Source: Actinoalloteichus caeruleus DSM 43889
Lineage (GTDB): Bacteria; Actinomycetota; Actinomycetes; Mycobacteriales; Pseudonocardiaceae
DNA: 64,000 nt
Direction of reading: 5' to 3'
Assembly (NCBI RefSeq): GCF_000429185.2
Contig: NZ_AUBJ02000001.1
Coordinates: 5,146,001 to 5,210,000 of the forward strand
Part shown: positions 31,682 to 47,697 of the stretch, piece by piece
Numbering within the stretch: position 1 is the first letter of the stretch
How the letters are laid out: each line of letters opens with the position of its first letter
Notes under the pieces: model-generated
What the model was told of the DNA's origin: nothing
Seen by the model: the letters and a program-made list of their open reading frames with translations, nothing else
Databases searched by the model: none
Program-made: the position numbers and the translations under genes

Positions 31682-31713
31682 TTGAACCTCACGTGGACGG
31701 CAGATCCTACGGT
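31682..31713 (+). promoter_or_regulatory. MerR-type promoter with 20-bp spacer, leaderless start
   Basis: TTGAAC (31682-31687) and TACGGT (31708-31713) are 20 bp apart, the overlong spacing typical of MerR-activated promoters. The predicted transcript start coincides with the ATG at 31720, so the aminotransferase mRNA would be leaderless, consistent with the lack of a ribosome-binding site. Confidence 0.55.
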
Positions 31714-31719
31714 CCTCCC

Positions 31720-32523
31720 ATGTCCTTTCACGTCGTGCAGCGCGATGGTCGGACGGCCACCGCCGATGAGTTGGCCCCACTCGCTTTCTCCGGCTACGCC
31801 CATTTCACCGCCATGCAGGTACGTGGCGGTCGGGTGCGTGGTCTGGATCTGCACCTCGATCGGTTGCGCACCGCTTCGGAGGAGCTGTTCGGGCGGGCGC
31901 TGCCCGAGGAACGGGTGCGGTCCCTGCTGCGCGCCGCGCTCGCGGCGGGGCCTGATGACCTCTCGCTGACGGCCACGGTGTACTCGCCGGCGGGCGAGTT
32001 CACCGCCCGCGGTGCTGGTGCGGAGTTGGAGGTGCTGGTTCGGACCGCCCCACCCGCGACCGGCCCCATCGGGCCGCTGGCGCTGATGGCCGTCGATCAC
32101 GAACGGGTCCTTCCCGCCGTCAAGCACGTCGGTGAGGTCGCCAAGACGTACTTCCTCCGACAGGCCGTCGCGCGGGGTTTCGACGATGCCGTCTTCGTCG
32201 ACCGCCGGAGCCGGCTCAGCGAGGCCACGATCTGGAACGTGGCCTTCTGGGACGGTGAGGCGGTGGTGTGGCCGGAGGCCCACGTGCTGGGTGGGACCAC
32301 GATGGGGATCGTGCGCAGGGGCCTGGACCGGTTGGGCATCCCCCAGCGGAGCCAGCAGGTGCGGCTGGACGACCTGCCCGCGCTGTCCGGGGCCGTCGTG
32401 ATGAACTCGTGGACTCCGGGAGTGGCGGTGGACCGCATCGGAGAGGTGCCGCTCCCGTCAGCCCCGCGCCTCCTGGGGCTGCTGCACCGCGCCTACCAGG
32501 AGGAACCGCTACTCGCTCCGTGA
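31720..32523 (+). CDS. Aminotransferase class IV family protein
   Basis: This 267-residue PLP enzyme is of fold type IV (branched-chain aminotransferase/aminodeoxychorismate lyase group). The PLP lysine is expected in LPAVKHVGEVAKTYFLRQ, the conserved glutamate lies in LSEATIWNVAFWDG, and the C-terminal region reads AVVMNSWTPGVAV. ATG 31720 has no ribosome-binding site but fits a leaderless transcript. Divergent from the MerR remnant, probably its former activator. Substrate not predictable. Confidence 0.88.
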   Translation: MSFHVVQRDGRTATADELAPLAFSGYAHFTAMQVRGGRVRGLDLHLDRLRTASEELFGRALPEERVRSLLRAALAAGPDDLSLTATVYSPAGEFTARGAGAELEVLVRTAPPATGPIGPLALMAVDHERVLPAVKHVGEVAKTYFLRQAVARGFDDAVFVDRRSRLSEATIWNVAFWDGEAVVWPEAHVLGGTTMGIVRRGLDRLGIPQRSQQVRLDDLPALSGAVVMNSWTPGVAVDRIGEVPLPSAPRLLGLLHRAYQEEPLLAP

Positions 32524-32571
32524 ACCAGGGTCCCACGTCCCACTGACCGGATTCGGAGTTCGGGGTGTTTG

Positions 32572-32645
32572 TGGGGCCGGTGGGACTCGAACCCACACTG
32601 GCACGGACCTAAACCGTGTGCCTCTGCCTATTGGGCTACGGCCCC
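32572..32645 (-). tRNA. tRNA with anticodon UAG (tRNA-Leu by anticodon) but short variable loop
   Basis: A complete 74-nt cloverleaf. The acceptor stem is GGGGCCG/CGGCCCC with discriminator A; the D-arm is GCC/GGC; the anticodon stem CACGG/CCGUG encloses the loop UUUAGGU; the variable loop has five bases (CCAGU); the T-arm is GUGGG/CCCAC with loop UUCGAGU. CCA is not encoded. The anticodon UAG reads CUA (leucine), but bacterial leucine tRNAs normally have a long variable arm, which this lacks. Confidence 0.9.
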
Positions 32646-32917
32646 CGCGCGCCGTTCCGACGCGGACCACAGGGTAACGGAAAGATCACTCTCGTGAGAC
32701 GAGGGGGCGCGATTGTGTCAGCGAGACCACGTTCCCGTCGTCCCCGCCCGCGCGGGGTGCCCGTGACCGGCACCCGCCGCGCGTTCGCTCGCCCGACTGG
32801 CGTCCTCTACGGTGTCGGAAACAGGATCGCTGCTGGCCGCGTCGGGTGGTCGCCCGGCCGGTCCGGTCGTGCCGGTCGTGCACGAGTTCCTGGTCCGCAC
32901 TGCTGTGAGGAGGAAAC
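32646..32917. promoter_or_regulatory. Promoter region of DUF3618 gene with possible ECF-type promoter
   Basis: GGAAAC at 32817-32822 and CGTC at 32840-32843 are 17 bases apart, which resembles extracytoplasmic-function sigma promoters. The remaining sequence between the tRNA and the gene shows nothing else. Confidence 0.3.
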
Positions 32918-33139: not shown

Positions 33140-33928
33140 GCGAGGTCGTCGGGGGCGGTGCCGGGTGCCGGCTCCGCCCCCGACCCGTGCCGGGGGTGGC
33201 TTCGGTCCGCACGTCGCGAACGGGTCCACTTCGGCTCGCTCCCGACGTTCCTCCTCCGAACGGCCGCGGTCCTCGCCCCCTCCGGCGGCGGTCCTGCCCA
33301 CTCCGGGATCCGCTCCGGGCCGCACCGACGATGCCCCGAACGCGCGAGGCTCCCGTTCCGGCGGGCAGCGTTCCCCGGCCCGGGCCTGCCAGGACTCGTC
33401 CCGTTCCCTTCCGCCGCCTGCGGCGCGTGGTCGCGTGCCGAGAGGCTGGTCCTCCTCGCCCGCGCGTGCCAGGCGGTGCCGATCGCCCGCTCCGCCGTGG
33501 GGCTCCTGGCGCCCGCCGGTTTCCGCCGCTGGTGCGTGGCGGCTGGAGTGGCTGGCGGCCCCTTGCCCGAGGTCCCCAGTACGCATTCGCCGGTGTGGTG
33601 GGGCGTCGCCGCTTCCTGGCGGTGGACGTCGAGGGGCCGGGGCCGGAACTCCGGGTCAGCCGCGCGTGGCCGGGCGGGCGTCGCCTGACCGGCAGCCGGC
33701 GGTGGGGAGGCGGGGAACCGCCGCGCGGTCATGCGTTCGCCTGGGGCGGTGGCGAATCCCCTGCGCTTTTCGTCTGATCGGCCGCCGCCGGTCACCGTCG
33801 TCCTGTTCTGCCGGAGCGACCACAGTTCTGTCTACTGTGGATGTTTCTGTTCCTCCCTCGAACAAGGGTGGAGGAGCGTTCCGCTGGTCCTCATCGGCCG
33901 GCGCGGCAACGACAGGAAGTGGGAGTTC
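33140..33928. other. Long intergenic region before the first S8 peptidase
   Basis: About 790 bp. All plus-strand frames are open from composition alone, but none has a start signal and a plausible protein. The only structure I can support is the inverted repeat at 33820-33840. Confidence 0.4.
33820..33840. promoter_or_regulatory. Inverted repeat upstream of S8 peptidase 1
   Basis: CCACAGT and ACTGTGG form a perfect 7-bp inverted repeat with a 7-base spacer, about 90 bp upstream of the peptidase ATG in a locally AT-richer stretch. A candidate operator; it is absent before peptidases 2 and 3. Confidence 0.4.
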
Positions 33929-36900
33929 ATGGGAGCACGACGACGAAGAGCGGCGGGGAGCGCCCTGCTGCTCACGGCGGGGCTGGCCCTGGGTGGTGCG
34001 ACCACCGCCACCGCCGGAACCCCGGACCTCGGCGTCCGGGCGGAGGCACCGGGAACCTTCGAGACGTTGACCCTCGTCACCGGGGACCACCTGCACGTCC
34101 GCCAGCTCGGCGGCGGACGGCTGGCGACGACGGTGCGACCAGCGCCGGGCCGCGAGCACGTCCAGTTCCTGCACCGCACCGTGGGCGGCCGGACGACGAT
34201 CGTGCCGTCCGACGCGGAGCGCCTGGTGCGGACCGGAGTGCTGGACCAGCGGTTGTTCGACGTCCACGGCCTGCTGGAACAGGGGTTCGGCGATGCCGGA
34301 CCGCTGCCACTGATCGTCGCCTACCAGCGGGGAAACGACCCGGGGGCGGGGGTGTCGGTGTTCTCGGGGGAGGCGAGCACCGGACGGGTGTTGACCAGCG
34401 TCAACGCGGTGGCGGTTCACCCCGGTGAGGACTCCGCCGACGTGGTGTGGGCCGAGCTCACCAACGACGCCACCGAACCGAGGGCGTTCTCCGGCGGCGT
34501 CGACCGGGTCTGGCTCAACGGTCGGGCGCGGGTGCTGGACGAGGAGAGCAACGCCCAGGTGGGGGCGCCGGAGGTGTGGGAGGCCGGCTACACCGGTGCC
34601 GGAGTGACGGTCGCCGTCCTCGACGGCGGGTACGACCCGGACCATCCCGACCTGGTCGACGCGGTGGTGGAGGCCGTGGACTTCACCGACCCGGCTGGCA
34701 CGGCGGCGGACGGCTTCGGGCACGGCACCCACGTCGCCGCCACCGTGGCTGGGCGGGGTGCCGCCTCGGACGGGGCGCACCGAGGTGTCGCGCCGGACGC
34801 GGACCTCGTCGTCGGCAAGGTCTGCGACGACTCCGGGTACTGCCCGGAGGACGCGATCATCGCGGGCATGGAGTGGGCGGCCGCCGGCGACGCGGTCGCG
34901 GTGAACCTGAGCCTGGGCATCGGGCCCACCGACGGCACCGACCCGATGTCGGTAGCGGTCGACACCCTCACCGAGGACACGGGCACCTTGTTCGTCGCCG
35001 CGGCCGGCAACGATGGCTGGGACATGACCGTCAGCTCGCCGGCGGCGGCGGACGCGGCGCTGGCCGTGGGCAGCGTGACGAAGTCCGACGAGCTCAGCGA
35101 CTTCTCCAGCCGGGGTCCTCGGGTCGGGGACTGGGCGGTGAAGCCGGAGATCGCGGCACCGGGTTCGGGGATCGTGTCCGCGCGGGCGGCGGGTACCGCG
35201 ATGGGGTCGCTGGTGGACGAGCACCACACCTCGGCGGACGGGACGTCGATGGCGTCTCCACACGTGGCCGGGGCGGTCGCGTTGTTGGCCGAGGCGAACC
35301 CCGAGTGGCGGGCCCGGGAGTTTCGCGCCGCGTTGATGGCCGCCGCCGAACCGCTGGCGGGGGTACCGGTGAGCGGTCAGGGCGCGGGCCGGCTGGATGT
35401 GGCCCGTGCGATGCGGCAGTCGGTGGTGGCGGAGCCGTCGTCGCTGTCCCTGGGGAACTTCACGTGGCCGAGGGACGGTGAGGAGCCGGCGGCCGGCACG
35501 GTCACCTACCGCAACACCGGGGAGGAGGACCTCATCCTCGACCTGGCTGTCGACCTGGTGACCGAGGACGGCGAGGCGGTACCCGCCGACCTCGTCGAGC
35601 TGTCGGTGAGCGACCTGCTGGTCCCGGCCGGCGGAGCCGCCGGAGCAACCGTGACGGTCGACGTCGCCCACGGCACCACCGGCTACCTCAGTGGGACGCT
35701 GCGCGCCACCGCCGAGGGCGGCGTGGCGGTCTCGACCCCGGTCGGCCTGCACCTCGAGCCGGAGAGCTACGACCTGGGGGTGGACGTCCTCGACCGGGAC
35801 GGGCGGTCCACGTCGCGGGCCGCGCTGCTGGTGGAGGACGCCGACACCGGGTACTCCTACTACCTGGAGGCGGACGGGAACGGGGACTACGCCGTCCGCC
35901 TGCCCGGCGGCACCTACAACCTCCTCGCCCGGATCGGTGACGACACCTCCGACGAATACACCTACGTCGTCGAGCGGGCGGTCCAGCTGACCTCGGATGC
36001 CCGGGTCACCGTCGACGCCACCCCGGCGGTCCCCATCGAGGTGCGCACGGAACGCCCCTCGGAGCTGCGGTACCACGACAGCGCCCTGCTCAGCGAGGAT
36101 CGGCAGTCCAGCCTGGGCGCCCTCGGGTTCGGCACCAAGCAGAAGTACGCGGTCCCGGCCCGTGGTTCGTTCGCCCTGAACTACAAGCCGACGCTGGTGT
36201 CCTCCTCCGAGGACGAGTACCGATACCACCTGGCCACCCAGTTCGTCGACGAGATCCCGGCCGAGCCCGTGCTGGCGCCTCGGGACGAGGAGCTGGCCGA
36301 GGTGACCTCGCGCTACCAGGCGCAGGGAGTGGCCGCCGCCGGGCTCAGGACGGTGGTGGGGCAGCTGGTGGACGACTGGTCCCTGTTCGGGTTCGGCCTT
36401 CCGGTCGACGTGCCCGGCTCGGGCACCGACTACCACTCGGTCACCGACGACGTCGAGTGGCGCGAATACCTTGGGTTCCAGGACGACCTCGGCGAGAACT
36501 ACGAGGAGACCGGTCGGGTCTCGGTGTATGCGGCGGGAGCGGCGTCGATCAGGTGGAACACCGCTCCGGTGACGATCCTCGGGGAGGGACGGCGCACCGG
36601 TGACGACCTGACGTTCTCGCCCCGGTACTTCGTCACCTCCGACACCGACCAGTACTACGGGTACGGCTCTGCCGACGTGTTCGCCGGTGAGCTGACCCTC
36701 TCCGACGAGCAGGGGGTGCTCGCCTCCAGCGACGAGTACGGCTTCCTGCGCGCTCCGGTCCCGAGCGAGCCCGGGATGTACACGCTGGAGGCCACGGCCA
36801 CGAGGAACGTGGAGTGGTCGATGCTGGGCACCTCGGCGCGGGCCCGGTGGACCTTCCGCAGTGAGAACCCGGGGACCGAGGGACCAACCGGTCTGCCCCT

Positions 36901-37207
36901 GATGGGGGTCCGGTTCACCTCGGTCGCGACCGTCGACGATCCGCTCGGGGTCCTGCCTGGGAACGGGGAGCACGCGTTTGCCGTGACGGTCGAGGACACC
37001 GCCGGTGGGATCGCCGAGCTGGCGGTCGAGTACTCGGTGGACGACGGGGAGACCTGGGAGCCGCTGGAGGTCGTCGACGGCGTGGTCTCGGTGGTGCACC
37101 CGGCGGAGGGCTTCGTGTCACTGCGGGCCAGGGCAGCGGACTCCGAGGGCAATTCCGTGGAGCAGGCGGTAATCCGCTCGTACCAGGTCGGTCCCTCGAC
37201 ACGGTGA
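33929..37207 (+). CDS. Secreted S8 serine peptidase 1 (subtilisin family)
   Basis: This 1092-residue precursor has a signal peptide of about 30 residues (MGARRRRAAGSALLLTAGLA start, ending TTATAG). A propeptide-like region precedes the catalytic domain at about 220-480. The triad is Asp232 (AVLDGG), His265 (GHGTHVA) and Ser440 (DGTSMASPHVAG), with oxyanion Asn361. The C-terminal 600 residues are beta-rich, with immunoglobulin-like repeats expected. GGGAG precedes ATG 33929. Related to the peptidases at 40089 and 44303 but more divergent. Likely an extracellular protease; substrate unknown. Confidence 0.95.
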   Translation: MGARRRRAAGSALLLTAGLALGGATTATAGTPDLGVRAEAPGTFETLTLVTGDHLHVRQLGGGRLATTVRPAPGREHVQFLHRTVGGRTTIVPSDAERLVRTGVLDQRLFDVHGLLEQGFGDAGPLPLIVAYQRGNDPGAGVSVFSGEASTGRVLTSVNAVAVHPGEDSADVVWAELTNDATEPRAFSGGVDRVWLNGRARVLDEESNAQVGAPEVWEAGYTGAGVTVAVLDGGYDPDHPDLVDAVVEAVDFTDPAGTAADGFGHGTHVAATVAGRGAASDGAHRGVAPDADLVVGKVCDDSGYCPEDAIIAGMEWAAAGDAVAVNLSLGIGPTDGTDPMSVAVDTLTEDTGTLFVAAAGNDGWDMTVSSPAAADAALAVGSVTKSDELSDFSSRGPRVGDWAVKPEIAAPGSGIVSARAAGTAMGSLVDEHHTSADGTSMASPHVAGAVALLAEANPEWRAREFRAALMAAAEPLAGVPVSGQGAGRLDVARAMRQSVVAEPSSLSLGNFTWPRDGEEPAAGTVTYRNTGEEDLILDLAVDLVTEDGEAVPADLVELSVSDLLVPAGGAAGATVTVDVAHGTTGYLSGTLRATAEGGVAVSTPVGLHLEPESYDLGVDVLDRDGRSTSRAALLVEDADTGYSYYLEADGNGDYAVRLPGGTYNLLARIGDDTSDEYTYVVERAVQLTSDARVTVDATPAVPIEVRTERPSELRYHDSALLSEDRQSSLGALGFGTKQKYAVPARGSFALNYKPTLVSSSEDEYRYHLATQFVDEIPAEPVLAPRDEELAEVTSRYQAQGVAAAGLRTVVGQLVDDWSLFGFGLPVDVPGSGTDYHSVTDDVEWREYLGFQDDLGENYEETGRVSVYAAGAASIRWNTAPVTILGEGRRTGDDLTFSPRYFVTSDTDQYYGYGSADVFAGELTLSDEQGVLASSDEYGFLRAPVPSEPGMYTLEATATRNVEWSMLGTSARARWTFRSENPGTEGPTGLPLMGVRFTSVATVDDPLGVLPGNGEHAFAVTVEDTAGGIAELAVEYSVDDGETWEPLEVVDGVVSVVHPAEGFVSLRARAADSEGNSVEQAVIRSYQVGPSTR

Positions 37208-39444: not shown

Positions 39445-40088
39445 ACCACCGCGCCCACTCCCGGCCGGCTTCGCCCTCGCGGCGGGGCCGGCCGGTCCGC
39501 GTCGCCCAACCGCAGGCCGGGCGGCGTCCGCGTGGCGCTGCGGTCGGGAAGGGACGGCGACATGGGAGGTTCCGGCCCGCTGACCAGGCCCGCCCAACGT
39601 CCGTTTCGGTAGTATCGCGCGTCGCACGAGAAGGGGACGCGGCGCGAATGCGGTGATACGAACGCGGTCGTGTTCCACGTCAGTTCCACCATCGCGCAGA
39701 ATTCCTTTCCCTGATTCCGGGTGTTCCTTCGTCGTCGGTGGTGGTGCCTGCTGCACGGACCTCGCCCGCGATCCCTCCATCGGATCTCGACGCGACGGGG
39801 GACCGCCGCCGCGCCCTGGTGGAGGTGGTGGCGCAGGGCTCCCCGAGGTTCGGCCAGCTCGTTGCGTGGTCGGGCGGTCGGCCGGTCGCCACGTGTTTTG
39901 GTGGACGCCGTTCGGTCGGACCTCGGCAATGTGGTCACTGTTCCGCCGCAGCCGTTCGGAATGACGCCAAGATCGTCTTCCTGGACCGGTCAGTATGTGA
40001 ACGTACTCGCCGTCAGCAAATCCCGGGTGAGGTTCCGCGCGATGCCACGCGGGGTCTCACGAGGGCGACGCCAAGGAAGCGGGAGTTC
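39445..40088. other. Upstream region of S8 peptidase 2 (duplicated)
   Basis: About 640 bp. From 39621 onward it is homologous to the region before peptidase 3. The last 90 bp before the ATG are almost identical in both, including TATGTGAACGTACTCGCCGT, and probably contain the promoter and 5' leader. I see no separate gene. Confidence 0.6.
39461..39495. terminator. Candidate hairpin terminator
   Basis: CCGGCCGGC pairs with GCCGGCCGG across a 17-base loop, 17 bp after the stop of the low-complexity gene. Confidence 0.45.
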
Positions 40089-43000
40089 ATGCGACCACGA
40101 CGACTGACAGCGGCGGGGGGTGCGGTGTTGATGGGCCTGAGCCTGGCCCTGGCCGTGCCCTCCGCCGCCGCCGCCGAACAATCGAACAGGGATGCTCCGC
40201 TCTCGTCGAGCGCCTCCGGACGGGCGGAGGTGTTGACGCTGGTGACCGGTGACCGGTTGCACGTCCACCGCGAGGCCGGGGACGCGTTCGGCGTGCGGGT
40301 GGAACCGGCGGAGGGGCGTGAGCACGTGACCTTCGTCCGCTACGCCGACGGGGATCGTCTGGTGGTGATCCCGTCCGACGCGCTGGGCCTGGTGCGTTCG
40401 GGTCTGTTGGACGAGCGGTTGTTCGATGTGCGTGGGCTGTTGGAGCAGGGTTTCGCCGACGGCGGTCCGCTGCCGTTGATCGTCTCCTACGCCGAGGGCA
40501 GCGATCCGGGGGCGCGGGTGTCGGTGCTCTCCGAGGAGGCGAGCACCGGTCGGGTGTTGGAGAGCCTGAACGCGGTGGCGGTGCACCCGGACGAGGATTC
40601 CGGGGACGGTGTGTGGTCCGAGATCACCCAGGAGGACGCGGAGGCGCGTGTCTTCTCCGGTGGGGTGGAGCGGGTGTGGCTCAACGGCCGTGCCCAGCTC
40701 TTGGATGAGGAGAGCAACGCCCAGGTGGGCGCGCCGGAGGTGTGGGAGTCGGGGTACACCGGTGAGGGTGTGACCATCGCGGTGCTCGACAGTGGCTACG
40801 ACCCGGAGCACCCCGACTTCGCGGATGCCGTGACGGAGGCGGTGGATTTCGTCGACCCCGAGGGTTCGGCGTTGGACGAGGACGGTCACGGCACGCATGT
40901 GGCGGGTACGGTGGCGGGCCGGGGGACCGCCTCGGGCGGGGCGCATCGGGGGGTGGCGCCGGATGCTGACCTGCTGGTGGGCAAGGTGTGCGGCCCCTTC
41001 GATTGCCCGGAGGACGCGATCATCGCGGGCATGGAGTGGGCCGCAGCGAGTGACGCGGTCGCGGTCAACTTGAGCCTGGGCGGGTGGCACTCCGACGGGA
41101 CCGACCCGATGTCGCTGGCGGTGAACGCCCTCACCGAGGGCACCGGCACGCTGTTCGTCATCGCAGCCGGCAACGACGGTCCGGGCGAGCGCGTCAACAC
41201 ACCGGCGACGGCGGACGAGGCCTTGGCGGTGGGCAGCGTCACGAAGTCCGACGAGCTCAGCTACTTCTCCAGCCAGGGCCCTCGGGCAGGGGACCGCGCG
41301 GTGAAGCCGGAGATCGCGGCCCCGGGCTCGGCCATCATCTCCGCGCGCGCGGCGGGCACCTCGATGGGCTCCCCGGTGGACGAGCACCACACCTCGGCTG
41401 ATGGCACGTCGATGGCCTCGCCGCACGTGGCGGGCGCGGTGGCCCTGTTGGCGCAGGCGAACCCCGACTGGACGGCCCCCGACTTCCGGGCCGCGCTGAT
41501 GGCCTCCGCCCAGCCGTTGGAGGGCATCGGGGTCGCCGGGCAGGGTGCCGGTCGGCTGGACGTGGCACGGGCCGTCAACCAGACCGTGGTGACCGAACCC
41601 ACCGCCGTGTCCTTGGGCAACTTCTCCTGGCCGAGGGATGGGCTGGAGCCGGTGGTGGAGACCGTCACCTACCGCAACTCCGGTGACGAGGACGTGACCC
41701 TGGACCTGGCCTTCGACGTGGTCGGCTCGGAGGGCGAGGCGGCCCCGGACGGGCTGGTCGAGCTGTCGGCGAGCGAGGTGACGGTCCCGGCGGGTGGCAC
41801 CGCCGAGGTGGAGATCGTCGTCGACCCCACCGTCAACGAGGTGGCCGGGTACCTGGGTGGTCAGCTGCTCGCCACGGACGGCGAGGTGTCGGTGTCCACG
41901 CCGGCGGGGGTGTTCGTCGAGGAGGAGAGCTACGACCTCGACCTCACGATCCTGGACCGCGAGGGGGAGACGGCGCCGTGGGCGATGGTGTTCGCCGAGA
42001 ACACCGAGACGGGGGACGTCACCTTCCTCGTCACGGACGAGAACGACAACTACGGCACCCGCCTCGCGAAGGGCACCTACGACCTGTTCGCCCTCGTCGA
42101 CACTTCCCCGGCCGGGGAGGACAACGCGGAGATGTTCAGCGAATGGACCTACGTGTCCCAGGCCGGGGTTGACCTCACCTCGGGTAATGCCGAGGTAACG
42201 CTCGACGCGTCCCCGGCCGTTCCGGTCCGCGTCGAAACCGAGCGGCCGGCGGAGCTGACCGCGTGGGACAGCTCGCTGAACAGCGGGCATCGTCATGCCA
42301 ACGTGGGTGCCAGCGCGGATGCCGCGAGCCCGCTGTACGTGGTCCCGGGCGAGGGAAGTTTCGCCCTGGCGTACAAGCCGGTCCTGGAGTCCGCATCGGA
42401 GGAGGACTACACGTACCACCTCGCCTTCGAACTGGTGGACGAGATCCCGGAGGAGGTCCTCTTCGCCCCCTCGGACGAGGAGTTGGCCAAGGTCACCACG
42501 ACCTACCACGGCCAGGGCATCGAGGCTCGGGGGGAACGCACCGTGGCACCGCGGTTCGACTACGACGCCATGTGGGCGTACCAGGTGAGGGAGGTCGGGC
42601 TGCCCTCGGACGAGACCCTCTACTACTCGGTGGGACAGGGCTTCACCTACGAGGAGCTCCTCACGCTCAGCGATCCGGATGCTGAGATCCACGAGCAGTG
42701 GGAGCGGGTGAGCACGTACGAGACGGGTTCCTCAGAGAGCTCCTGGAACCTGGCCCCGGTGACGGTGAACGGATTCGCCGAGCGCATCTACGACCTGGCG
42801 ATGATCGCACCCCAGCTCTTCACGACTTCCGATGCCGACCGTTACGAGGCTTACAGCGGAACGGGCAACGGGGTCAACGGGCAGCTGACCCTCTCCCATG
42901 AGGGTGAGGTCATCGCCTCCACAGAGGATGCCGTCCTGCTCATGCTGCTGCCCAGCGGACCGGCCGAGTTCACGGTGGAGGCGAACGCGACGCGGGACGT

Positions 43001-43461
43001 GCCCTGGTCGTCCCTCGGTTCCTCGGCGGAGGCCCGGTGGACCTTCCACTCGGACACCGCCGGTGAGACCGAGGCCGAGGAGCAGCCGATGCTCGGTGTG
43101 CGGTTCTCCGGGGCCGCCGGCGATGCCGACCTGCTGGGTCGGCTGCCCGGTGGTGGTGAGCACGTCCTGAGCGTGGACGTGGAGCGGGCTGTGGGTGAGG
43201 TCGCCGAGTTGTCGGTGGAGGTGTCCACGGACGACGGGGAGACCTGGGAGGTCGTGGAGGTCGTGGACGGCACGGTGACCGTCGAGCACCCGGAGGAGGG
43301 TTTCGTGTCGCTGCGGGCCTCGGCCACCGACTCGGAGGGCAACAGCGTGGAGCAGACGGTGATCCGTTCCTACCAGGTCATCTCCGAGTAGTGAGCGCCG
43401 GTCGGGGTCCGGTCTGGTCCGGGCCCGCCGGGGCCGGGTGGGTGTGCCACGCCCCTCGTGA
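39621..43461 (+). repeat. Tandem duplication unit A (S8 peptidase 2)
   Basis: A 3.84-kb unit homologous to 43828-47697, running from GTCGCACGAG upstream of the promoter through the gene to the GTGCCACGCCCCTCGTGA sequence after the stop. Identity is very high over the promoter-proximal 90 bp, the protease domain and the C-terminus, and much lower in the middle of the C-terminal half. Confidence 0.9.
40089..43391 (+). CDS. Secreted S8 serine peptidase 2
   Basis: This 1100-residue precursor has a signal peptide of about 29 residues (MRPRRLTAAGGAVLMGLSLA start, ending AAAAE). The catalytic triad is Asp234, His267 (DGHGTHVAG) and Ser441 (DGTSMASPHVAG). A Cys pair in VCGPFDC may form a disulfide, and beta-rich C-terminal domains follow. 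GGGAG precedes ATG 40089. Peptidase 3 is its tandem copy. In the segment after the oxyanion Asn this protein differs (VNTPATADEALAVG) from both peptidases 1 and 3. Likely extracellular protease. Confidence 0.95.
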   Translation: MRPRRLTAAGGAVLMGLSLALAVPSAAAAEQSNRDAPLSSSASGRAEVLTLVTGDRLHVHREAGDAFGVRVEPAEGREHVTFVRYADGDRLVVIPSDALGLVRSGLLDERLFDVRGLLEQGFADGGPLPLIVSYAEGSDPGARVSVLSEEASTGRVLESLNAVAVHPDEDSGDGVWSEITQEDAEARVFSGGVERVWLNGRAQLLDEESNAQVGAPEVWESGYTGEGVTIAVLDSGYDPEHPDFADAVTEAVDFVDPEGSALDEDGHGTHVAGTVAGRGTASGGAHRGVAPDADLLVGKVCGPFDCPEDAIIAGMEWAAASDAVAVNLSLGGWHSDGTDPMSLAVNALTEGTGTLFVIAAGNDGPGERVNTPATADEALAVGSVTKSDELSYFSSQGPRAGDRAVKPEIAAPGSAIISARAAGTSMGSPVDEHHTSADGTSMASPHVAGAVALLAQANPDWTAPDFRAALMASAQPLEGIGVAGQGAGRLDVARAVNQTVVTEPTAVSLGNFSWPRDGLEPVVETVTYRNSGDEDVTLDLAFDVVGSEGEAAPDGLVELSASEVTVPAGGTAEVEIVVDPTVNEVAGYLGGQLLATDGEVSVSTPAGVFVEEESYDLDLTILDREGETAPWAMVFAENTETGDVTFLVTDENDNYGTRLAKGTYDLFALVDTSPAGEDNAEMFSEWTYVSQAGVDLTSGNAEVTLDASPAVPVRVETERPAELTAWDSSLNSGHRHANVGASADAASPLYVVPGEGSFALAYKPVLESASEEDYTYHLAFELVDEIPEEVLFAPSDEELAKVTTTYHGQGIEARGERTVAPRFDYDAMWAYQVREVGLPSDETLYYSVGQGFTYEELLTLSDPDAEIHEQWERVSTYETGSSESSWNLAPVTVNGFAERIYDLAMIAPQLFTTSDADRYEAYSGTGNGVNGQLTLSHEGEVIASTEDAVLLMLLPSGPAEFTVEANATRDVPWSSLGSSAEARWTFHSDTAGETEAEEQPMLGVRFSGAAGDADLLGRLPGGGEHVLSVDVERAVGEVAELSVEVSTDDGETWEVVEVVDGTVTVEHPEEGFVSLRASATDSEGNSVEQTVIRSYQVISE

Positions 43462-44302
43462 CCCGGGCTCGGCATCGCCCGCTCGGCATCGCCCGCGTTG
43501 GGGACGACGGGGTCGTTCCGTCCCCATGTGCCACGCCGTCCCCGGCTGCTGCCTGATCCCGCCACCACCGCGCCGCTGGCCCGACCTCGCGGGGGCGGGA
43601 CGTCGCACCAGCCGTCCCCCGCTCGGCCGCCCACCCGGTGCCACTCGGCCACGAGGGCGAGCCCGGTCCCCAGGCGCAGTTGACCGTCCGGGTGGCCGGT
43701 CTCGTGGCGCGGCGTCGTCGTGACGTGGTTGGCGAGGATCGTGGGTGCCCGTCCCGGCGCCATCGGCTTGGCGGTGAGCTGGCGATTCCACCGCCACCGT
43801 CGTCCCTGGTTCCCTTCGGGGGCGAGCGTCGCACGAGGAGAGAACGCACGGCGAATTCGGTGATACGAACGCGGTCATGTTCCGCGAGAGTTCCACCACC
43901 GCGCCGAATGCGTTTCCGCTGATTCCGGTAATCCTTCGTCGTCGCCGGTCAGCCCGCTGGACCGACCTCGACCACGGCTGCGGGCTCGGGACCGCGACGC
44001 GACGGGGACCGCCGCCGCGCCCTGGTGGAGGGGTGGTGTGCCAGCGCACGAGGCCCGGACCGCCTCATCGTGGGAGCGGGACCAGCCGGCCGGTTCGCCT
44101 CGTACTTTCGGTCGACGCCGTTCGGCGGAGCACTCTCGGCAATATGGCCACTGTTCCCGTTCCAGCTGTTCGGGAATGGCGCCGAGATCTGTTCGTGAAC
44201 TGGCCGATATGTGAACGTACTCGCCGTCAGCAAATCCCGAGTGAGGTTCCGCGCGATGCCACGCGGGGTCTCACGAGGGCGACGCCAAGGAAGCGGGAGT
44301 TC
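43392..44302. other. Region between S8 peptidases 2 and 3
   Basis: 910 bp. The first 70 bp are the duplicated 3' flank of unit A, and 43828-44302 is the duplicated promoter region of unit B. The part between (about 43462-43827) is unique and contains a 2 x 14-bp tandem repeat; it has no gene I can support. Confidence 0.6.
43467..43494. repeat. Tandem repeat, 2 x 14 bp
   Basis: GCTCGGCATCGCCC occurs twice head to tail directly after the end of duplication unit A. Confidence 0.8.
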
Positions 44303-47300
44303 ATGCGACCACGACGACTGACAGCGGCGGGGGGTGCGGTGTTGATGGGCCTGAGCCTGTCCCTGGCCGTGCCCTCCGCCACCGCCGCCGAACGTCCGAA
44401 CGGCGGGGATCAACCGCTCTCGTCGAGCGCCTCCGGACGGGCGGAGGTGTTGACGCTGGTGACCGGTGACCGGTTGCACGTCCACCGCGAGGCCGGGGAC
44501 GCGCTCGGCGTGCGGGTGGAACCGGCGGAGGGGCGCGAGCACGTGACCTTCGTCCGCTACGCCGACGGGGATCGCCTCACCGTGATCCCGTCCGACGCGC
44601 TGGGCCTGGTGCGTTCGGGTCTGTTGGACGAGCGGTTGTTCGATGTGCGTGGGCTGTTGGAGCAGGGTTTCGCCGACGGCGGTCCGCTGCCGTTGATCGT
44701 CTCCTACGCCGAGGGCAGCGATCCGGGGGCGCGGGTGTCGGTGCTCTCCGAGGAGGCGAGCACCGGTCGGGTGTTAGAGAGCCTGAACGCGGTGGCGGTG
44801 CACCCGGACGAGGACTCCGGGGACGGTGTGTGGTCCGAGATCACCCAGGACGACGCGGAGGTGCGTGTCTTCTCCGGTGGGGTGGAGCGGGTGTGGCTCA
44901 ACGGCCGTGCCCAGCTCTTGGACGAGGAGAGCAACGCCCAGGTGGGCGCGCCGGAGGTGTGGGAGTCGGGGTACACCGGTGAGGGTGTGACCATCGCGGT
45001 GCTCGACAGTGGCTACGACCCGGAGCACCCCGACTTCGCGGATGCCGTGACGGAGGCGGTGGATTTCGTCGACCCCGAGGGTTCGGCGTTGGACGAGGAC
45101 GGTCACGGCACGCATGTGGCGGGTACGGTGGCGGGCCGGGGGACCGCCTCGGGCGGGGCGCATCGGGGGGTGGCGCCGGATGCTGACCTGCTGGTGGGCA
45201 AGGTGTGCGGCCCCTTCGATTGCCCGGAGGACGCGATCATCGCGGGCATGGAGTGGGCCGCAGCGAGTGACGCGGTCGCGGTCAACTTGAGCCTGGGCGG
45301 GTGGCACTCCGACGGGACCGACCCGATGTCGCTGGCGGTGAACGCCCTCACCGAGGGCACCGGCACGCTGTTCGTCATCGCAGCCGGGAACTTCGGCGCG
45401 GACGAGAGCGTCAGCAGTCCAGCTGCGGCGGACGCGGCGCTGGCCGTGGGCAGCGTCACGAAGTCCGACGAGCTCAGCGACTTCTCCAGCCGGGGACCCC
45501 GGGTGGGCGACCGCGCGGTGAAGCCGGAGATCGCGGCCCCGGGAACGGCGATCGTCTCCGCGCGGGCGGCGGGCACCTCGATGGGGTCCCCGGTGGATGA
45601 GCACCACACCTCGGCCGACGGCACGTCGATGGCCTCGCCGCACGTGGCGGGCGCGGTGGCCCTGCTGGCGCAGGCGAACCCCGACTGGACGGCCCCCGAC
45701 TTCCGGGCCGCGTTGATGGCCTCCGCCCAGCCGTTGGAGGGCATCGGGATCGCTGGTCAGGGCGCCGGTCGGCTGGACGTGGCGCGGGCCATCGACCAAA
45801 CCGTGGTCAGCGAGCCCGCAGCGGTGTCGTTGGGCAACTTCCTGTGGCCCCAGGCCGATCTGGAGCCGGTGGTGGAGACCGTCACCTACCGCAACTCCGG
45901 TGACGAGGACGTGACCCTGGACCTGGCCTTCGACGTGGTCGGCTCGGAGGGCGAGGCTGCCCCGGACGGGCTGGTCGAGCTGTCGGCCAGCGAGGTGACG
46001 GTCCCGGCCGGCGGTACCGCCGAGGTGGAGATCACCGTCGACCCCACCGTCAACGAGGTGACCGGGTACCTCAGCGGTCAGCTGCTCGCCACCGACGGCG
46101 AGGTGTCGGTGTCCACGCCGGCGGGGGTGTTCGTCGAGGAGGAGAGCTACGACCTCGACCTCACGATCCTGGACCGCGAGGGGGAGACCCCGGAGTGGGC
46201 GCTGCTGGTCGCCGAGAACGCCGAGACGGGTGAGGACACCCAGATCCTGCCCGATGAGAACGGCGACTACGTCGGCCGGCTCACGAAGGGAACCTACAAC
46301 CTGCTCGGGATCATCACCACCACCTACCCGGGTGGTGAGGGCGACGAGGAGATCTCCGAGGACCACACCTACGTGATCGGGTCGGGGATCGACGTCACCT
46401 CGGGTGATGCCGAGGCCACGCTCGATGCGGCGCCCGGCGTTCGGGTGCGCGCCGACACCGAGCGGCCGGCTGAGCTCACCGCCTGGGACAGCTCCGTGGT
46501 CGGCGAGCACCGGCTGTTCGGGGTGGGAGTCGCCGGGATGGCCGGGGGCGGCTCCACTCCCCTGTACGCGGTACCGGGCGAGGGCTCCTTCGCCCTGACG
46601 TACCTGCCCATCCTGGAGTCCACCTCGGGTGACGAGGACTATGCCTACCACCTCGCCTTCGAGTTGGTGGACGAGATCCCGGAGGAGATCCTGTTCGCCC
46701 CGTCGGACGAGGAGTTGGCCGAGGTCACCGCGACCTACCACGGCCAGGGCGTCGAAGCCACCGGCAACCGGGCGGTCATCGCGCGCTTCGACTACGCCCA
46801 CATGTACATCCGCGTGCCCAGGACGGTGGAGGTGCCCTCGACGGAGACCCTGTACTACAGCGTCGAGGACAACCTCTCCTACATGGAGAGCTTCGACCAC
46901 AGCGACCCCGACGCGGGGATCTACGAGTACTGGGACCGGACCAGCACCTACGAGACGGGTTCCTCCGAGAGCTCCTGGAACCTGGCTCCGCTCACCGTGC
47001 GGGGACTCGCCCAGCGATTCGGCGACGAGGTCATGATCGGATCGAGCCTCTTCACGACCTCCGACGCCGACTTCTACGACGTCTACGGCGGCTCGGACGG
47101 GGGCGTGACCGGGGAGGTGACCCTTTCCCACGAGGGTGAGGTCATCGCCTCCAGTGAGGACGTCGCCTACCTGATCGCGCCGCTGCCCAGCGGACCGGCC
47201 GAGTTCACGGTGGAGGCGAACGCGACGCGGGACGTGCCCTGGTCGTCCCTCGGTTCCTCGGCGGAGGCCCGGTGGACCTTCCACTCGGACACCGCCGGTG

Positions 47301-47697
47301 AGACCGAGGCCGAGGAGCAGCCGATGCTCGGTGTGCGGTTCTCCGGGGCCGCCGGCGATGCCGACCTGCTGGGTCGGCTGCCCGGTGGTGGTGAGCACGT
47401 CCTGAGCGTGGACGTGGAGCGGGCCGTGGGTGAGGTCGCCGAGTTGTCGGTGGAGGTGTCCACGGACGACGGGGAGACCTGGGAGGTCGTGGAGGTCGTG
47501 GACGGCACGGTGACCGTCGAGCACCCGGAGGAGGGTTTCGTGTCGCTGCGGGCCTCGGCCACCGACTCGGAGGGCAACAGCGTGGAGCAGACGGTGATCC
47601 GTTCCTACCAGGTCATCTCCGAGTAGTGAGCGCCGGTCGGGGTCCGGTCTGGTCCGGGCCCCGCCGGGGCCGGGTGGGTGTGCCACGCCCCTCGTGA
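43828..47697 (+). repeat. Tandem duplication unit B (S8 peptidase 3)
   Basis: Homologous to 39621-43461 over its whole length, including promoter and 3' flank. Divergence is concentrated in residues about 685-970 of the encoded protein and in a short block after the oxyanion Asn. Confidence 0.9.
44303..47626 (+). CDS. Secreted S8 serine peptidase 3
   Basis: This 1107-residue precursor with a signal peptide of about 30 residues. The catalytic triad is Asp235, His268 and Ser442, and long stretches of the N-terminal half are identical to peptidase 2. The block VSSPAAADAALAVG followed by SRGPRVGD is identical to peptidase 1, not peptidase 2, implying gene conversion. The middle of the C-terminal half is strongly diverged from peptidase 2, while the last 150 residues are identical to it. 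Probably an extracellular protease of altered specificity. Confidence 0.95.
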   Translation: MRPRRLTAAGGAVLMGLSLSLAVPSATAAERPNGGDQPLSSSASGRAEVLTLVTGDRLHVHREAGDALGVRVEPAEGREHVTFVRYADGDRLTVIPSDALGLVRSGLLDERLFDVRGLLEQGFADGGPLPLIVSYAEGSDPGARVSVLSEEASTGRVLESLNAVAVHPDEDSGDGVWSEITQDDAEVRVFSGGVERVWLNGRAQLLDEESNAQVGAPEVWESGYTGEGVTIAVLDSGYDPEHPDFADAVTEAVDFVDPEGSALDEDGHGTHVAGTVAGRGTASGGAHRGVAPDADLLVGKVCGPFDCPEDAIIAGMEWAAASDAVAVNLSLGGWHSDGTDPMSLAVNALTEGTGTLFVIAAGNFGADESVSSPAAADAALAVGSVTKSDELSDFSSRGPRVGDRAVKPEIAAPGTAIVSARAAGTSMGSPVDEHHTSADGTSMASPHVAGAVALLAQANPDWTAPDFRAALMASAQPLEGIGIAGQGAGRLDVARAIDQTVVSEPAAVSLGNFLWPQADLEPVVETVTYRNSGDEDVTLDLAFDVVGSEGEAAPDGLVELSASEVTVPAGGTAEVEITVDPTVNEVTGYLSGQLLATDGEVSVSTPAGVFVEEESYDLDLTILDREGETPEWALLVAENAETGEDTQILPDENGDYVGRLTKGTYNLLGIITTTYPGGEGDEEISEDHTYVIGSGIDVTSGDAEATLDAAPGVRVRADTERPAELTAWDSSVVGEHRLFGVGVAGMAGGGSTPLYAVPGEGSFALTYLPILESTSGDEDYAYHLAFELVDEIPEEILFAPSDEELAEVTATYHGQGVEATGNRAVIARFDYAHMYIRVPRTVEVPSTETLYYSVEDNLSYMESFDHSDPDAGIYEYWDRTSTYETGSSESSWNLAPLTVRGLAQRFGDEVMIGSSLFTTSDADFYDVYGGSDGGVTGEVTLSHEGEVIASSEDVAYLIAPLPSGPAEFTVEANATRDVPWSSLGSSAEARWTFHSDTAGETEAEEQPMLGVRFSGAAGDADLLGRLPGGGEHVLSVDVERAVGEVAELSVEVSTDDGETWEVVEVVDGTVTVEHPEEGFVSLRASATDSEGNSVEQTVIRSYQVISE

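Follow-up and report, generated by a model that had tools for sequence, protein, structure and literature searches.

A class I tRNA-Leu(UAG) in Actinoalloteichus caeruleus and the short leucine tRNAs to which it belongs

The window analysed here, a 64-kb stretch of the Actinoalloteichus caeruleus genome, contains a lone tRNA gene that ARAGORN places at 32571-32645 on the minus strand and assigns to leucine. The Rfam tRNA model (RF00005) matches 32572-32645 with 56.8 bits (E 1.3e-9), a cloverleaf score above the curated gathering score of 29 that marks membership of the family. The gene (32572..32645, minus strand, as are all its parts) specifies a 74-nt tRNA-Leu(UAG) of class I shape with no encoded CCA. 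Its minus-strand reading gives an acceptor stem GGGGCCG/CGGCCCC, a D arm GCC CAATAGGCAGA GGC, an anticodon arm CACGG TTTAGGT CCGTG and a T arm GTGGG TTCGAGT CCCAC, with all 7+3+5+5 stem pairs formed. The D arm (32620..32636) is of the leucine type, with a 3-bp stem GCC/GGC and an 11-base loop, CAAUAGGCAGA, and carries the residues C13, A14, A15, G18, G19 and A20a. The anticodon UAG (32609..32611), called by ARAGORN and read from the sequence, is part of the loop UUUAGGU (32607-32613), and the discriminator is A73 (32572..32572). The variable loop, CCAGU (32597..32601), ends in U48; its five bases fall within the 4-5 bases of a class I tRNA and short of the 10 or more of a class II arm. An earlier note, silent on the strand, had described this complete, well-paired cloverleaf, its UAG anticodon and its five-base variable loop correctly. 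It had also named a canonical long arm as the structure that would speak against its reading; no such form is obtained on re-folding by energy, which yields -35.4 kcal/mol and a z of -2.71 relative to shuffles.

An aminotransferase class IV gene (31693-32523) is convergent with the tRNA gene and ends 48 bases from its 3′ end. Just beyond the tRNA lies a cluster of three plus-strand genes (33731-37207, 39738-43391 and 43877-47626) for subtilase (Peptidase_S8) proteins of 1158 to 1249 residues. A weak candidate for a -10 element, recognised by consensus match, is the hexamer TACCCT 26-31 bases upstream of the tRNA (32671..32676, minus strand), which is identical in the same-genus genome G001. 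In many relatives (L042-L045, L047, L049, L050, L058 and others) a hexamer resembling TAGGCT precedes the tRNA by about 15-18 bases and is likely to be the -10 element. A TANNNT motif starting at -15 to -18 was counted 18 times over 31 rows, a suggestive outcome from rows that include the window gene twice; the window gene's own motif stands at -31.

The complete genome context is provided by a single contig of 6.04 Mb (99.84% complete), where the Rfam tRNA model finds 48 tRNA genes at E <= 0.001 and, with the limit relaxed to E 10, one further weak match (19 bits). ARAGORN, applied to the stretches holding Rfam matches, assigns five of them to leucine. tRNA-Leu(CAG) and tRNA-Leu(GAG) are class II molecules with 15-base variable regions; tRNA-Leu(UAG), (UAA) and (CAA) are class I, all with the loop CCAGU. 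The search for a normal class II tRNA-Leu(UAG) elsewhere, suggested in the earlier note, came back empty: the Rfam model, ARAGORN and a pattern search find no class II gene for UAG, UAA or CAA in this genome, and the class II pattern with YAR anticodons matches CAG only. The window gene is the sole UAG isoacceptor as far as these searches see. Since no class II form was found for the three anticodons, every CUA, UUA and UUG codon in A. caeruleus would, within the same reach, be read by a class I tRNA. It is therefore very probable that the window gene is a working leucine tRNA of an under-described class I form, and that it belongs to a three-member short set replacing class II molecules. The tRNA, having lost the long variable arm or never had it, would read CUA and could help with CUG by wobble, and the short UAG, UAA and CAA forms would stand in for their class II counterparts in its own family.

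The class I shape with a five-base loop is typical of most other isotypes, and the bodies of lysine, methionine, threonine and arginine tRNAs score near class I Leu(CAA) in A. caeruleus. These likenesses speak for the suggestion that the window tRNA receives a different amino acid and that CUA consequently differs in meaning in this lineage. The use of the codon argues strongly against it. Leucine codons were placed on protein alignment columns for 17 genes from 21 genomes (20 relatives and A. caeruleus), with UUG, UUA and CUA masked, a column conservation of at least 80% and a minimum of six other rows. CUA falls on leucine columns in 29/29 cases (24 columns in 11 relatives, none in A. caeruleus itself), with five further CUA codons in unconserved columns. 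UUG does so in 282/292 cases (174 columns), with 95 more unconserved; A. caeruleus itself contributes 18 on leucine and one on valine. The controls behave similarly (CUG 4508/4562, CUC 2500/2537, CUU 179/183). UUG misses leucine in ten cases (Val 5, Phe 3, Met 1, Ile 1), somewhat more often than CUG (3.4% versus 1.2%), though with residues that usually replace leucine; UUA is too rare to reach any conserved column. By the sum of printed counts, CUA, UUA and UUG make up 422 of the 9115 leucine codons in these genes and genomes. In the LeuRS genes of 30 genomes of the own family (f1), UUG stands on leucine in all 51 conserved cases, with 35 more unconserved. Three f1 genomes that have a class II form (G027, G030 and G032) lie outside the 21-genome set. 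The columns of the relatives thus indicate that leucine codons are read as leucine, as they must be for a tRNA-Leu. Together with the near invariance of A73 and U48 among class I leucine tRNAs, they leave a change of amino acid or of CUA decoding, both raised in the earlier note, exceedingly improbable and, for the conserved genes of relatives, largely refuted.

Two other codon counts were set aside. A comparison of window ORFs with six relatives (UUG 71/110, CUA 9/12) was spoiled by high-GC shadow frames and few orthologues. A count over 26 genes (conservation cut-off 70%, minimum eight other rows) put CUA on leucine 52 times, on valine 23 times and on histidine once; the valine cases inspected (o23, o28) are stretches before the rpsG start and a non-gene frame. 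The genes dropped from the 26 are o28 and o318 (shadow frames), o170 and o31 (start not located) and o34, o112, o113, o47 and o192 (unclear start); secY (o114) is counted from residue 110 onward.

How a leucine tRNA could dispense with its long arm is suggested by work on E. coli, where, in the available text of PMC9976931, the leucine determinants are A73, A15-U48, G18G19 and A20a. The long arm there correlates with charging neither in sequence nor in fold and is not an identity element, and arm-less tRNA-Leu variants are still active; the premise that bacterial leucine identity requires the arm, from which the earlier note had argued, is not supported there (PMC9976931, same text). The residues of the E. 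coli elements A73, A14, A15-U48, G18G19 and A20a all occur in the sequence of the window tRNA. When charging it, the single LeuRS of the cell would be expected to rely on A73 together with the tertiary core that the D and T loops form (A14, A15-U48, G18G19 and A20a). Because A73 and the core are all kept, the long arm would not be needed. The A. caeruleus genome encodes one bacterial LeuRS, with a summed score of 871.8 bits; the weaker matches look like other class I synthetases. The nearest solved structures to this LeuRS are bacterial LeuRS entries. From the sequence, we infer that the window tRNA is expressed and charged by this enzyme.

Related tRNAs were collected with a class I pattern that fixes the leucine-type D loop, a YAR anticodon and the five-base variable loop. 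Because the pattern itself requires A14, A15, G18, G19 and A20a, finding these residues throughout the collections adds no independent evidence; A73 and U48 were left free. Among matches with at least 18 pairs, A73 is found in 153/153 bacterial and 90/90 viral class I leucine tRNAs and U48 in 152/153 and 89/90 (241/243), where the 243 count related sequences repeatedly and comprise 128 + 87 rows once identical trimmed rows are removed. For comparison, A73 occurs in 28 of the 48 tRNA genes of A. caeruleus and U48 in 10 of its 43 non-leucine genes. The window tRNA shares with the class II tRNA-Leu(CAG) and (GAG) of the same genome U8, A14, A15, U48, G18G19, C20, A20a, a 3-bp D stem with AGA, A73 and the use of leucine codons. 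It differs from them in its variable region (5 versus 15 bases) and in having A9 and C13 where class II has G9 and a purine at 13. These differences extend to the collections: C13 is present in 228/243 class I versus 0/38 class II leucine tRNAs, and A9 in 195/243 versus 0/38, all 38 class II sequences having G9. We propose that C13 and the G of AGA form a pair, with one A bulged; this fourth D-stem pair may substitute for the absent arm. A FastTree analysis of 252 sequences in a trimmed alignment was rejected as a means of separating class I from class II, the best split being wrong for 17.

The origin of the gene is a separate matter. Outside the anticodon and variable region, its top match in the genome is the class II tRNA-Leu(CAG), with a score of 52, and the other two class I leucine tRNAs follow just behind at 51. 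The five anticodon-stem pairs are identical to those of tRNA-Leu(CAG), in keeping with the remark in the earlier note that the anticodon arm resembles that of an ordinary tRNA-Leu. A class I body could thus have received its anticodon arm from tRNA-Leu(CAG) by recombination, a history that concerns origin and is compatible with a working leucine tRNA. Yet the short UAA and CAA forms have the same body with a different anticodon stem, other stems are found on this body in many relatives and in other phyla, and the shared stem may reflect tuning of the arm to a UAG or CAG anticodon. The chimera put forward in the earlier note is accordingly possible but rather unlikely; a one-off hybrid is contradicted, since the body is common to three short leucine tRNAs.

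Stems are complete at all 30 loci compared, the window gene among them, and the acceptor and T stems covary (GGGCCCG/CGGGCCC, GGGTCCG/CGGACCC and GGATCCG/CGGATCC). As judged from sequence, this completeness and the paired changes mean that the window tRNA is under selection. The tRNA is matched in 93/100 relatives at E <= 0.001, the weaker of these matches being other tRNAs, mostly the sister short leucine tRNAs. The class I pattern matches 55 of 60 relatives (A. caeruleus counted among the 60), including all 36 genomes of family f1, 31 of which have the UAG, UAA and CAA short forms together; read backwards as a control, the pattern gives zero matches in any row. Scored per anticodon over the 60 genomes and three anticodons, class I only occurs 137 times, class II only 12 times, both 4 times and neither 27 times. 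Outside f1 (24 genomes x 3) the respective counts are 37, 12, 1 and 22. The class II pattern misses some forms, with one match in many genomes of family f18, so that "neither found" does not mean absent. Outside f1 the single case of both forms compares with 6.9 expected by chance (Fisher p 0.0004, from rows related by descent and hence not independent), and class I and class II forms of one anticodon appear to tend to exclude each other there. One genome (G069) has class II forms only, four in number, and two (G063 and G079) mix the classes without overlap. In three of the 36 f1 genomes (G027, G030 and G032) the class I forms are accompanied by a single class II form, of CAA or UAG. An extra class I tRNA-Leu with a CAG anticodon accompanies the class II CAG gene in G008, G017, G022, G027, G030 and G034. 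With a stricter pattern, 74 of 396 genomes drawn from the phylum match; one of the 74 (G344) is plainly no tRNA, and where a match came without a locus, inspection by eye was the sole check.

The UAG class I form is also matched in at least 119 stretches of named genomes from a wider range of bacteria. Among the 80 stretches listed, 79 are cloverleaves with at least 18/20 pairs and one (Dyella) is a chance match. The listed carriers include many Pseudonocardiaceae, Nocardioides and its relatives, Ilumatobacteraceae, Cyanobacteria (Nostoc, Moorena, Microcoleus), Chryseobacterium, Flavobacterium, Planctomycetes, Acidobacteria, Melainabacteria and Variovorax. These names make it most likely that f1 is the Pseudonocardiaceae. 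In 20 of the listed genomes a search was made for a class II UAG gene, and the matches were judged by eye. A tRNA-like match is present in eight (Mycolicibacterium, Kribbella, Flavobacterium, Moorena, Nostoc, Adonisia, a Planctomycetaceae MAG and Variovorax), matches in three others are chance-like, and none is found in nine, among them two Nocardioides, Marmoricola, Acrocarpospora and three of five Chryseobacterium, the remaining two of which have chance-like matches only. The short UAG form thus seems to be an extra gene in some bacteria and the sole one in others. In Chryseobacterium the class I tRNA-Leu(UAG) (L266, L270, L275, L314, L329, L330 and L334) combines G13 with a D arm resembling that of class II, as if the long arm had been lost separately there. 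At one of these loci (L329) a class I UAA gene lies 79 bases from the UAG gene.

Phage contigs carry the class I form as well. The 80 loci listed contain 93 pattern matches, and 91 of these form cloverleaves with 17/20 pairs or more; their anticodons are UAA (33), UAG (32), CAA (23) and CAG (3), and A73 is present in 91/91. Actinobacteriophage genomes in GenBank contain similar genes annotated as tRNA-Leu, with matches in 117 records, of which 20 were listed and two regions were inspected. These genes, for example in Mycobacterium phage Finemlucis and Gordonia phage GodonK, have a similar class I body (at most 86% identity in the listed matches) and differ from the window gene in being phage-borne and adjoining many other tRNA genes. 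On the Tsukamurella plasmid NZ_LR134447.1, an 84% match to the window tRNA lies at 160920-160984, where no gene is listed. The occurrence of class I tRNA-Leu genes in phage tRNA arrays, and of extra copies beside class II UAG in the eight listed genomes (Nostoc, Moorena, Kribbella and others), would suit an accessory or non-ribosomal tRNA, for example one serving peptide or lipid aminoacylation, or a decayed remnant from a phage or other element. Against this, the window gene is the only UAG isoacceptor found, its stems covary across the family and no integrase was found among the 10 neighbouring ORFs scanned. We regard such a status as very unlikely; the non-ribosomal role considered in the earlier note is improbable as a sole job because no other UAG-anticodon tRNA was found in the genome. 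With the window gene taken as a working leucine tRNA, the abundance of phage cloverleaves among the listed loci, and the presence of the form beside class II in some genomes and instead of it in others, hint at a broader history. Tentatively, class I tRNA-Leu may be a mobile, phage-spread lineage that took over class II work in several bacterial groups and has a core of its own (C13, often A9, and a bulged A in the D stem), a joint reading that we hold possible but less than probable. Loss of the arm may have been favoured by a lesser likeness to tRNA-Ser for SerRS and to the targets of tRNA toxins that grip long arms.

Short leucine tRNAs have been noticed before in single cases. According to the available text of PMC6582537, a tRNA cluster in Mycobacterium mucogenicum and M. 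phocaicum includes a tRNA-Leu(TAG) with a short loop in addition to the normal gene with its long arm. Compared by description, it is likewise a Leu(UAG) with a short variable loop from a related actinomycete; unlike this extra cluster gene, the window tRNA is the sole UAG form found and one of three. For M. tuberculosis, the part of PMC11541572 at hand gives long variable loops to tRNA-Leu-2, -3 and -5, and its silence on the others suggests that these have none. The accessible portion of PMC2265525 notes short arms in some Sec, Ser, Tyr and Leu tRNAs; it also speaks of class II functions being assumed by class I structures. Animal mitochondrial tRNA-Leu also has no long variable arm and is charged via A73 and A14, but it is an organelle tRNA whose unmodified transcript has a partly unfolded anticodon branch, in contrast to the fully paired window tRNA (PMC9976931, text as available). 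The same 2023 review, in that text, has tRNA-Leu long-armed everywhere but in animal mitochondria. Taking the predicted tRNAs as they stand, this rule is contradicted by sequences from a bacterial family, from other Actinomycetota, from Chryseobacterium and from many phage contigs. Class I tRNA-Leu is absent from the available text of a review of non-canonical tRNAs (PMC7609411), and likewise from that of PMC8450103 and PMC6297222. No account of it as a general bacterial feature was found in the open-access literature; subscription papers are mostly uncovered, and an earlier description is possible. The surprise is the generality of the short shape, not the window locus itself.

In most genomes of the family the long-arm rule does not hold for three of five leucine tRNAs, nor does it for many phage tRNAs. 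Isotype models used in annotation may flag short tRNA-Leu genes as mismatched, and the short shape is relevant to tRNA-targeting toxins that recognise long arms. It also provides a natural experiment on arm function: both shapes should be accepted by the LeuRS of such bacteria, and with native pairs one can test what the arm does in charging, in editing and in excluding SerRS. A tie between LeuRS type and short tRNAs was considered and discarded: each of the two lengths (about 960 and about 830 residues) is found both in genomes with class I tRNA-Leu and in genomes lacking it. Both LeuRS lengths are found in Actinomycetota, and one genome, G027, carries the two together.
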